DNA of 64,000 nt, taken from positions 1-64,000 of the forward strand of contig JAKCCV010000016.1 in NCBI GenBank assembly GCA_021838785.1, given 5' to 3'. The notes beneath the pieces were generated by a model. It did no database searches, was not told where the DNA came from, and worked only from the letters and a program-made list of their open reading frames with translations. Positions 57,792 through 61,892 of this stretch are shown here, one piece after another. The translations under genes were made by a program, and so were the position numbers. Within the stretch, counting starts at the first letter, position 1. Every line of letters starts with the position of its first letter. The DNA comes from Acidobacteriota bacterium. Lineage in GTDB: Bacteria; Acidobacteriota; Terriglobia; UBA7540.

Positions 57792-58197
57792 GATCGTCTC
57801 TCCCGGCGCAGAATCGCCGGACCGGTGTCTGGGCGCTTTCCGAGATGATGCACTTCAGCAAAGCTTTCTCCCTGGCACTGCGCTCAAATGCGTACCATTG
57901 TTCGTCGGTCGTGGAAGATAAACACCGAGCCTCTGAGCCGAGATTTGTTGAGGCTCCTGCTGAAGACGAACTTGCAGATTTTGAAGGGAATAGCCTCCCG
58001 GAGGGCCGCAACTCAATGGGCAATTTACCCCCTTTAACCCACGGAAATCCCCGTCCGTCGGAATTTGCTTCACACCCGGCGGGCGGCAACCTTATATTGG
58101 CGACGCTAGCCCAGCGTGCCATGCGTGGCCCAGAGTTACCGAATCCTCAGGTGCGCGGCTGAGAGCGTCAGACAATCCGAGAGCGGAGGAATAATCT
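57792..58197. other. Gene-free stretch before the radical SAM gene
   Basis: These 406 bases have no convincing gene. A short hairpin CCGGCG/CGCCGG lies at 57803-57820 just after the GIY-YIG remnant. A GGAGG at the right end serves the next gene. Confidence 0.45.
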
Positions 58198-60279
58198 ATG
58201 CCAAGAATTAGAGGCCAAAGAGCCATGAAATACTTCGACCTGGCCCTGGTGAAAACGGCCGGCGCGTTATTTGACGGTATTCAATTTTTTAACAAGTACA
58301 AGCCGGAAGAAACCTTCACGCCGCGGTGGTCGGAGAAGCCGTTGCTGAAGTCGTGGCAAAAGACGAAGCCTCAATTGGGCTTTCCGCGCCAGACCGACTC
58401 TCTTTGTCCGCAGTGCGTGAAGGAGGCTCGCGAGGCCATCATCAACGGCGAGCGTGACTGGCACGACCTCCTCAATCAAAAAGTCGGCGAGATCAAGGCG
58501 CAAATCATCGAGCGCGACGGGCAGATTTGGATGGTCAAGGATTGTCCGCTGCACGGCCACTTTGAAGACATCATGGCCATTGACGCCAACTTCCTCAAGT
58601 GGATTGAGAAGAACTTCCCAGGGCGCGACATCCGAGCGCACAATGACGCTGAGCTGCACAATCACGGCTCCAGCACCATCCGGCACGGCCGCGGCTCCGT
58701 GCTGACGGTGGACCTGACGAACCGCTGCAACATGATGTGCGATCCGTGCTTTATGGACGCCAACCAGGTGGGATTTGTCCACGAACTGACCTGGGAAGAC
58801 ATCAAAGAGATTCTCGACAACGCCATGAAGATCAAGCCGCGCCGACAGATGTCGGTGCAATTTTCGGGCGGCGAGCCCACCATGTCGCCGTATTTCATTG
58901 ACGCCGTCCGTTACGCTCGGAAGCTCGGCTACAACAGCGTGCAGGCGGCCACTAACGGCATCGAATTTGCCAAGAGCAAGGATTTCTGCCGCCGGGCTTT
59001 CGAGGCCGGGCTGCGCTACGCTTACTTGCAGTTCGACGGCATCGGCAACGACGCCAACTCCCACCGTCAAGTGGGCAACCTGTTCGACGTCAAGCTGAAG
59101 GCCATTGACAACATGCACGAGGCGGGCATTGAAATTATCTTGGTCACCACGCTGGTCAACGGCGTGAACAACGATCAGGTCGGCCCCATTATCAACTTCG
59201 CCCGCGAGAACCCAAAGAAGATCGCTTTCATCGCTTTCCAGCCGGTCTCCTTCACCGGGCGCGACGAGGACATCACGCCGGCCCGCCGCATGAGGCAACG
59301 CTACACGCTCTCGCATATGGCGCTCGACGTGAAGAAGCAATTGGGCATCACCGAGCCTACGCGCGACTGGTTCCCTCTCTCGCTGATGGGCGCGTTCGCG
59401 GATTTCGCCGATTTGGTTCACGGGCCGGAAGCGCAGTGGGGCCAGGTGAGCTGCGGCTGCCATCCCAACTGCGGCGTGGGCACGGCGCTGATGATTAACA
59501 AGGAAACCAAGGAATGGGCGCCCGTGCCGCAGTTTCTTGACATTCCCGGCTTGGTCCGAGACATGCAGAAAATCACCGACGCCGGCCGTGCCCGTCCCTT
59601 TTCGAACTTTATGATGGCGCTTTGCTTGCTCAAGAACTACAAGCCGATGGGCGCGCCGAAGAGCCTGGCCTTGGTGGATTTGTTGAAGAAATTCGACAAA
59701 TCCTTCGCGCTCACGGGCGAGAAGCGGGCCGACAAGCTTTACGGCGCTTCAAGCCCCGAGCGCACGCTGGAAGACACCCTCAAACGCCGCTCGGATCCCT
59801 GGAATTTCCTGTTCATTGCTGGCATGTGGTTCCAGGACCTCTTCAACTACGACTTCCGACGGACAGAAATGTGCATCATTCCGTATGCCACGCAGCAAGG
59901 CGAAATTTCCTTCTGCGCGTACAACACCGGCATCGGCTGGCGCAATATCATCGAGAACATGTACAAGAACGCGACGGTTGCCGAGTGGTATAAATCCCAC
60001 GGCAAGCACGAAATTTACGCCAAGGGCAAAGAAGTGGCGCTGGCGGACCGCCAACATTCGCTGGTCGTCAACGCCGAGGATGCGAACCGCGTGCGCCAGC
60101 GGGAGCACGATATTCCGATGACGGCGGCCGAGGAAGTACGCGCCCGGCGCCGGACAGAATGGCAGGAAAAGCAAGCGCGAGCGCTTTACGAAGAGATGGT
60201 GCTCAAGAAGCCCAAGACCGAACTCGTGCAAATCGGCGGCGTCCAACCGGCTGAAGAAAGGGATAAAGTTCCGGTTTAG
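58198..60279 (+). CDS. Tes/MJ0619-like radical SAM protein (possible membrane-spanning lipid synthase)
   Basis: This 693-residue protein has the layout of the MJ0619/tetraether synthase (Tes) group. An N-terminal cysteine-rich part carries LCPQCVKEAR and MVKDCPLHGHFEDIM. The radical SAM cluster is TNRCNMMCDPCFMD (CX3CX2C), followed by FSGGEPT, and CGCHPNCGVG may bind an extra cluster. GGAGG eight bases before ATG 58198 gives a sound start. Archaeal Tes joins lipid tails; bacterial relatives have been linked to membrane-spanning lipids such as iso-diabolic acid in Acidobacteria. Lipid synthesis here is inferred from family resemblance; methyl transfer or another alkyl chemistry remains possible. 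Confidence 0.78.
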   Translation: MPRIRGQRAMKYFDLALVKTAGALFDGIQFFNKYKPEETFTPRWSEKPLLKSWQKTKPQLGFPRQTDSLCPQCVKEAREAIINGERDWHDLLNQKVGEIKAQIIERDGQIWMVKDCPLHGHFEDIMAIDANFLKWIEKNFPGRDIRAHNDAELHNHGSSTIRHGRGSVLTVDLTNRCNMMCDPCFMDANQVGFVHELTWEDIKEILDNAMKIKPRRQMSVQFSGGEPTMSPYFIDAVRYARKLGYNSVQAATNGIEFAKSKDFCRRAFEAGLRYAYLQFDGIGNDANSHRQVGNLFDVKLKAIDNMHEAGIEIILVTTLVNGVNNDQVGPIINFARENPKKIAFIAFQPVSFTGRDEDITPARRMRQRYTLSHMALDVKKQLGITEPTRDWFPLSLMGAFADFADLVHGPEAQWGQVSCGCHPNCGVGTALMINKETKEWAPVPQFLDIPGLVRDMQKITDAGRARPFSNFMMALCLLKNYKPMGAPKSLALVDLLKKFDKSFALTGEKRADKLYGASSPERTLEDTLKRRSDPWNFLFIAGMWFQDLFNYDFRRTEMCIIPYATQQGEISFCAYNTGIGWRNIIENMYKNATVAEWYKSHGKHEIYAKGKEVALADRQHSLVVNAEDANRVRQREHDIPMTAAEEVRARRRTEWQEKQARALYEEMVLKKPKTELVQIGGVQPAEERDKVPV

Positions 60280-60306
60280 ACGGGGCGACACTTCAGCCAG
60301 CTTTCG

Positions 60307-60338
60307 GGGCCGCACGCTCGATGCGGCCCTTTGTTTTT
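60307..60338 (+). terminator. Intrinsic terminator after the Tes-like gene
   Basis: GGGCCGCA (60307-60314) pairs with TGCGGCCC (60322-60329) around a seven-base loop and is followed by TTTGTTTTT (60330-60338). It lies 27 bases after the stop codon. It is among the best-formed terminators in the window. Confidence 0.85.
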
Positions 60339-60878: not shown

Positions 60879-61892
60879 ATGCCTAACGACACGCTCGGGC
60901 GGCCGCTCAAGGACCTGCGGATCTCTGTCACCGACCGCTGCAATTTCCGCTGCACCTACTGCATGCCCTTGAACGAGTATTCGTGGATTGAACGGGGCGA
61001 GCTGCTCACGTACGAGGAAATTTTCCGCCTGGCCGGGCTGTTCGTGCGCCTCGGGGTGGAAAGGATTCGGGTAACGGGCGGCGAGCCGCTGGTTCGGCGG
61101 AGACTCGACGTCCTGATCCGTAGCCTCGCCTCGCTCGAGGGGATACAGGACCTCTCGCTCACGACGAATGGGGCACTGCTCGCCGAGCAGGCCGAGGCGC
61201 TGCGGGCGGCCGGACTCAAGAGAATCAATCTCAGCCTTGATACGCTCGAGGCGGCGAAGTTCCGCCGCATTACCCAGCGCGGGGAACTCAGCGAGGTTCT
61301 GAAAGGCCTGGAGGCCGCCGAGCGCTGCGGCTTTTACCCCATCAAGATCAACGCCGTCATCGAGCGCGGCGTTAACGAGGACGAAATCGTGCCACTGGCG
61401 GAATTCGCTCGCGCCCGCGGTCTCACGCTACGTTACATTGAGTTTATGGACGTCGGAAACGCCAATCAGTGGCGCATGGAGAAGGTGGTCGGCAAAAAAG
61501 AAATTCTCGCCACGCTGGCCGCGCGGTTTCCGCTGCGCGAGGCGCGCCGCGCGGACACAAGTTCGCCGGCCGTGAACTACGAGTTCGCCGACGGCGGGGG
61601 CGCGTTCGGCGTCATCGCGTCGGTCACGGAACCCTTTTGCCGCGACTGCGACCGCGCCCGGCTCACCGCCGACGGCAAGCTGGTGACGTGCTTGTTTGCC
61701 CAGCAAGGGCACGACCTCAAGTCCCTCCTTCGAGCCGGCGCGAGCGATCGGGAACTTATGGAAGTCATCGCCAGCCTTTGGCGACAAAGAGCCGACCGCT
61801 ACTCGGAGGAAAGACTTGTAGCCCTTCAATCGCCCTCGGGCTATGAGGCGCAACGCCATGCCAAAATGGAAATGATCGTCCTGGGCGGCTAG
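60879..61892 (+). CDS. moaA: GTP 3',8-cyclase
   Basis: MoaA starts molybdenum-cofactor synthesis from GTP. The 337-residue protein has the radical SAM cluster CNFRCTYC near residues 22-29, TGGEPLVRR, and the second cluster in the C-terminal CRDCDRARLTADG plus a later Cys. The chain ends in GG, as the family requires for activity. GGAG precedes ATG 60879. Other moa genes are not in the window, and the 69-base gap before it is too short for a moco riboswitch. Confidence 0.96.
   Translation: MPNDTLGRPLKDLRISVTDRCNFRCTYCMPLNEYSWIERGELLTYEEIFRLAGLFVRLGVERIRVTGGEPLVRRRLDVLIRSLASLEGIQDLSLTTNGALLAEQAEALRAAGLKRINLSLDTLEAAKFRRITQRGELSEVLKGLEAAERCGFYPIKINAVIERGVNEDEIVPLAEFARARGLTLRYIEFMDVGNANQWRMEKVVGKKEILATLAARFPLREARRADTSSPAVNYEFADGGGAFGVIASVTEPFCRDCDRARLTADGKLVTCLFAQQGHDLKSLLRAGASDRELMEVIASLWRQRADRYSEERLVALQSPSGYEAQRHAKMEMIVLGG

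Follow-up and report, generated by a model that had tools for sequence, protein, structure and literature searches.

Iso-diabolic acid is the product of terminal coupling between two iso-C15 chains. The 64,000 nt stretch of an Acidobacteriota contig that we analyzed (the window) contains a radical SAM gene whose product is a candidate for the enzyme that joins these chains in Acidobacteriota. An earlier note, made from the sequence, had read the protein as a Tes/MJ0619-like radical SAM protein and as a candidate for membrane-spanning lipid synthesis. We refer to the subfamily to which the gene belongs as group A.

The open reading frame was found exactly where the earlier note had placed it, with 693 codons on the + strand (Table 1). 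It is a real gene under purifying selection, as the protein is 93% identical to the copy from a same-genus genome, the two genes differ at 45, 27, and 265 sites in codon positions 1, 2, and 3, and dN is 0.044 with a dS of 1.15 (dN/dS ∼0.04). The strong ribosome site claimed for the gene is present as a GGAGG Shine-Dalgarno sequence. At the place of the claimed terminator there is a hairpin of 9 pairs with a G+C-rich stem and a T-rich tail, although the same scan yields 6 terminator-like sites versus 3.9 expected by chance. The neighbors in the window are a tRNA-Met gene, a downstream moaA (60879–61892; 392 bits, over the cut-off of its model), which is a second radical SAM gene close to that of group A, and three genes that we take, by eye from their translations, to be smpB and pepA (upstream) and a PilZ-like ORF (downstream). 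None of these points to lipids. In several relatives moaA recurs downstream of the group A gene. Two irregular copies were seen elsewhere. One (G270:C7:14006-16009), from an otherwise complete genome, has a single TAA in frame and is either a pseudogene or a sequencing error; the other is a stray N-terminal fragment in G014 (L105:5076-5483), ∼65% identical and located on the opposite strand ∼2 kb upstream of the full gene.

Table 1. Position of the group A gene in the window, its flanking signals, and the sites of the encoded protein.
Feature	Position	Strand	Basis
Shine-Dalgarno GGAGG, 8 nt 5′ of ATG	58185..58189	+	sequence
Tes-like radical SAM gene, group A, 693 aa	58198..60279	+	ORF list, profile searches, structure
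N-terminal extension, predicted helix, residues 4–32	58207..58293	+	AlphaFold2 model, alignment
Rubredoxin-type site C70, C73, C116, H119	58405..58554	+	Pfam, alignment
His-x-His H154, H156	58657..58665	+	alignment
Radical SAM CX3CX2C core C177/C181/C184	58726..58749	+	Pfam, alignment
C419-G-C421-H-P-N-C425	59452..59472	+	alignment
M543, C559, C573, putative C-terminal auxiliary cluster ligands	59824..59916	+	alignment; Met439 from PMC9433317
C-terminal extension past Tes fold, residues 606–693	60013..60276	+	AlphaFold2 model, structure alignment
Terminator-like hairpin, T-rich tail	60306..60330	+	hairpin scan

The family assignment agrees with the earlier reading. Pfam returned Radical_SAM (5.7e-19) and PF23545 Zn_ribbon_HMPTM (1.4e-14), the best NCBIfam model was Tes (NF045702; 318.5 bits, 6.7e-95), and the best PDB sequence match was MJ0619 (7TOL; 1.1e-63). 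An AlphaFold2 model made with 72 sequences (mean pLDDT 87, pTM 0.88) had 7TOM/7TOL, which are Tes with bound lipids, as its best solved structure and as the only ones to match the entire core, with 483 of 498 residues aligned at 2.8 Å and a Z of 41.2. The next-best solved fold was MoaA with a Z of 20 over 272 residues. Given these different alignment lengths, the model predicts the whole Tes architecture, beyond the radical SAM barrel alone, and it includes the cap, which shapes the second lipid pocket. An ordinary cofactor radical SAM protein (MoaA, NirJ, TrsS) was rejected, as these models scored far lower or matched part of the protein only, and MoaA is encoded by the separate gene described above. 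The protein is nevertheless not a Tes equivalog: it scores below the curated NF045702 equivalog cut-off of 450 bits and one of the four cofactor sites is missing.

The likeness to archaeal Tes (also GDGT-MAS) thus comprises the core fold and the rubredoxin, radical SAM, and C-terminal auxiliary sites at 31% identity. Group A differs by lacking the N-terminal cluster ligands, by extensions of ∼60 residues at the N-terminus and ∼90 residues at the C-terminus, by a longer ribbon loop, by the additional invariant residues C419/C421 and H154/H156, and by its score (318 versus 450 bits). Archaeal Tes acts on phytanyl chains, whereas the bacterial group A enzyme is expected to act on iso-C15. MJ0619 has no counterpart of the N-terminal extension of group A. 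The helix predicted in this extension could possibly contact the membrane. The C-terminal extension has a long helix at residues 643–667 in the model.

To compare the cofactor sites, we mapped the MJ0619 residue numbering (PMC9433317) onto an alignment of 53 group A/B and 19 Tes-type sequences. Group B is a paralogue, ∼50% identical and likewise without the N-terminal cluster, that accompanies group A in some genomes (L062, L063, L064, L077). The radical SAM core cysteines are invariant in both sets, as are C425, M543, C559, and C573. C425 aligns with C338 of MJ0619 and M543 occupies the position of its labile Met439. We infer that C425 is a ligand of the C-terminal auxiliary cluster, and this cluster is probably retained with its labile Met, the cysteines being assigned by alignment. 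The rubredoxin-type CX2C…CX2H site is present with ∼22 inserted residues in its loop relative to MJ0619, and its ligands are kept across group A/B except for a few changes at the ribbon His. C419 and C421, beside C425, are extra cysteines invariant in group A/B. By contrast, the N-terminal auxiliary [4Fe-4S] ligands (C73/C77/C80 and a His in MJ0619) are absent from all sampled group A/B sequences: this stretch holds 0–1 Cys in group A/B versus 3–4 in Tes-type proteins, including those of the same phylum, and the His-x-His pair invariant in group A/B lies in this region. The cysteine layout of Tes that had been noted from the sequence therefore stands for C70/C73, C116-x2-H119, C177-x3-C181-x2-C184, and C419-G-C421-H-P-N-C425, to which C559 and C573 can be added, and fails for the N-terminal auxiliary motif. 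Group A has probably lost a surface cluster and kept the one whose sulfur holds the substrate radical in MJ0619.

More distant relatives served as the outgroup of the phylogeny, in which group A/B (29 rows, support 100/100) falls within the Tes-type sequences, next to a few acidobacterial proteins of Tes type (100/99), with MJ0619 and other acidobacterial Tes placed outside this assemblage. A tree in which the Tes-type sequences were held together apart from group A/B was rejected (p-AU 0.008). The exact sister is uncertain because the group A/B stem is long. Placement in a methyltransferase-only clade, named beforehand as evidence against the lipid reading, was not seen, as the protein nests inside Tes-type sequences. 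Since these keep all four sites, the simplest reading of the alignment and tree is that the N-terminal cluster was lost once within the Tes lineage and was probably not primitively absent. The acidobacterial Tes-type proteins, which have been proposed for brGDGTs (PMC8941075), are nearest on the tree with 32–38% identity to the window protein, but they have all four cofactor sites, score over the Tes cut-off, and occur in 26 of 149 phylum genomes, whereas group A is nearly class-wide.

Of 150 class genomes that are at least 95% complete, 147 carry a group A match, and the main gene has an identity of roughly 62–100% in the genomes for which it was listed. Across the phylum sample of 149 genomes, group A-type and Tes-type genes form separate sets. 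At least 573 relatives came up in a named scan, and most of the 80 that were retained belong to Terriglobia. In the plasmid collection searched, only distant matches of at most 31% identity were found. Two MAGs titled Rhodanobacteraceae (L156, L177) carry group A genes ∼80% identical to those of Acidobacteriota and are likely mislabeled or mis-binned.

In most subdivision-1 isolates examined, group A is the sole Tes-family candidate. Six isolates, among them Granulicella rosea, G. aggregans, and Acidipila rosea, have it as their only full Tes-family gene, and none of their proteins exceeds the Tes cut-off. Two of the eight isolates have a further gene, which is a lower-scoring Tes-like one in Acidicapsa dinghuensis and a broken one in Granulicella sp. 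S156. In one genus, Edaphobacter is the best match of the group A regions; every sampled genome of this genus has group A, most of them without a Tes-type gene. In the host genome of the window gene, none of the other proteins among 27 radical SAM matches scored as Tes-like.

This distribution can be set beside published lipid analyses. Iso-diabolic acid makes up 12–30% of the fatty acids in six Edaphobacter strains including E. aggregans (PMC11354219), 27–49% in the Occallatibacter-Telmatobacter clade (PMC12935467), and 20–40% in 17 cultures of subdivisions 1 and 3 (PMC13274423). S. usitatus makes brGDGTs, with iso-diabolic acid undetected (PMC10087280). The match between gene and lipid is at genus and class level, as the strains analyzed for lipids are not the genomes searched, and the correlation covers the iso-diabolic-acid-rich groups, i.e., its positive half only.

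Linkage of group A to a lipid operon is confined to one sublineage, in which seven loci encode a HAD plus fatty-acyl-CoA-reductase protein on the strand of the group A gene and 0.1 to 5 kb downstream of it. In one of the relatives (G062, L229:920-13833) the group A gene heads a run that continues with the HAD-acyl-CoA reductase, an epimerase-like reductase, a pyruvyl-transferase-like protein (PS_pyruv_trans-like), two AMP-ligases, an enoyl-CoA hydratase (ECH), and a DAG-kinase-like protein. Other neighbors that recur in subsets of the relatives are moaA, queG, envelope genes, and an A/G-glycosylase-like gene that we named MutY by eye. As the recurring genes occur only in subsets and the lipid operon in one sublineage, we rejected naming the substrate from conserved neighbors. 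A search for PF09989, which we take to be the mark of PlsA/Ger, gave no match in the host and in four relatives but detected the domain in the T. maritima control; PlsA/Ger-type ether formation was therefore discarded for the host genome. The host does carry an elb-like set on contig C24 (L232:7101-14734), with acyl-CoA reductase, AMP-ligase/carrier/acyltransferase, PlsY, HAD, and LarA-like proteins, which is comparable to the Myxococcus elb operon (PMC9131029) and is a candidate aerobic ether-lipid pathway. Because of this gene set, ether-linked chains are possible in the host.

Taken together, family, fold, catalytic ligands, sole-candidate status, class-wide presence, and lipid-gene linkage in some relatives support the candidacy for membrane-spanning lipid synthesis put forward in the earlier note. 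We consider it probable that the window protein is a Tes-superfamily membrane-spanning lipid synthase that forms iso-diabolic acid chains. Points that count against this are the score of 318 bits against a cut-off of 450, the missing cofactor site, neighbors in the window that are not lipid genes, a lipid linkage limited to one sublineage, brGDGT production by S. usitatus with iso-diabolic acid undetected, and the alternative enzyme Mss discussed below. MJ0619 removes hydrogen from the terminal carbon of a chain with an isopropyl end and couples chains via a carbon-sulfur intermediate on the auxiliary cluster (PMC9433317), and the proposed function fits because this chemistry matches the coupling of iso-C15 with iso-C15. 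These steps are transferred to group A by homology and matching chemistry. The radical SAM cluster would generate a 5′-deoxyadenosyl radical that takes hydrogen from the terminal methyl of a phospholipid iso-C15 acyl (or alkyl) chain. As in MJ0619, a sulfur of the C-terminal auxiliary cluster would hold the carbon radical until activation of a second chain allows the two terminal carbons to bond, which would yield membrane-spanning 13,16-dimethyl octacosanedioic (iso-diabolic) chains. The retained rubredoxin site may serve in electron transfer, and the surface N-terminal cluster would be dispensed with. Ether links, where present, would come from separate enzymes such as those of the elb-like set.

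Group A could instead be a lipid-tail radical SAM enzyme that cross-links, cyclises, or methylates membrane-spanning chains supplied by another enzyme, much as Grs, a related lipid radical SAM enzyme, modifies lipid chains. The GMGT synthase Gms does such work by radical SAM C-C coupling on lipid tails (PMC11186832), and group A coexists with a Tes-type gene in some genomes, which in G112 and G160 (L081, L091) lies 3–6 kb downstream on the same strand. Most subdivision-1 genomes examined, however, have no other Tes-type gene to make the chain, the two-pocket core of Tes is wholly retained in the window protein, and Gms has a different architecture with a SPASM domain and a different cap (PMC11186832). 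We regard a tail-modifying role as unlikely. We are also doubtful, to a high degree, that an Mss-type enzyme elsewhere in the genomes makes iso-diabolic acid while group A acts on another hydrophobic substrate. Mss (Thermotoga, Bacillota) is an experimentally supported alternative source of this acid: it is reported to give membrane-spanning lipids upon expression in E. coli and to have homologues in some Acidobacteriota genomes (PMC11868695, PMC11604127). By published description (PMC13274423), it shares the kind of product and a Tes-like architecture with group A. The Tes model finds nothing in T. maritima at E 1e-20 or better but matches the window protein at ∼1e-95, and the other radical SAM proteins read from the host genome fit known families or have no Tes-like cysteine layout. 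Conceivably, group A itself has already been counted as Mss in the literature.

The older annotation of MJ0619 relatives as pterin methyltransferases bears on the window protein through its PF23545 match, as the Pfam name of the ribbon is still “HMPTM.” The pterin activity was left uncorroborated by the structural study of MJ0619, which instead showed that the protein has a hydrophobic lipid tunnel and couples lipids (PMC9433317). As this objection applies here too, the pterin reading is disfavored, and we rejected it as the best reading since its sole support is an inherited domain name; that it is correct seems extremely improbable.

The idea that bacterial Tes homologues make such lipids, on which the earlier note also drew, is not new and has been published in general form (PMC8941075, PMC10087280). 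Zeng et al. (2022) proposed bacterial homologues, including that of Edaphobacter with 32% identity, as brGDGT enzymes (PMC8941075), and Halamka et al. noted two Tes homologues in S. usitatus (PMC10087280); a 2025 survey lists the activity of bacterial homologues as unconfirmed (PMC11868695). What is new, as far as the literature searched shows, is a distinct Terriglobia subfamily that is near-universal in the class, nested in Tes, and missing one cluster site.

Past temperature and pH are widely reconstructed from brGDGTs and related iso-diabolic-acid lipids, and group A is the best candidate for the chain-joining enzyme of soil Acidobacteriota. If the proposed function is true, group A would provide a single gene by which producers can be recognized, a deletion target in strains that can be cultured, and a natural experiment that shows which of the Tes cofactors are required. 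We see an even chance that group A is a separate type of bacterial synthase, which evolved inside Tes by losing the exposed N-terminal cluster, a loss that perhaps suits oxygen-respiring soil bacteria, and which would make iso-diabolic acid throughout the class and thereby supply some of the material on which the brGDGT thermometer relies.
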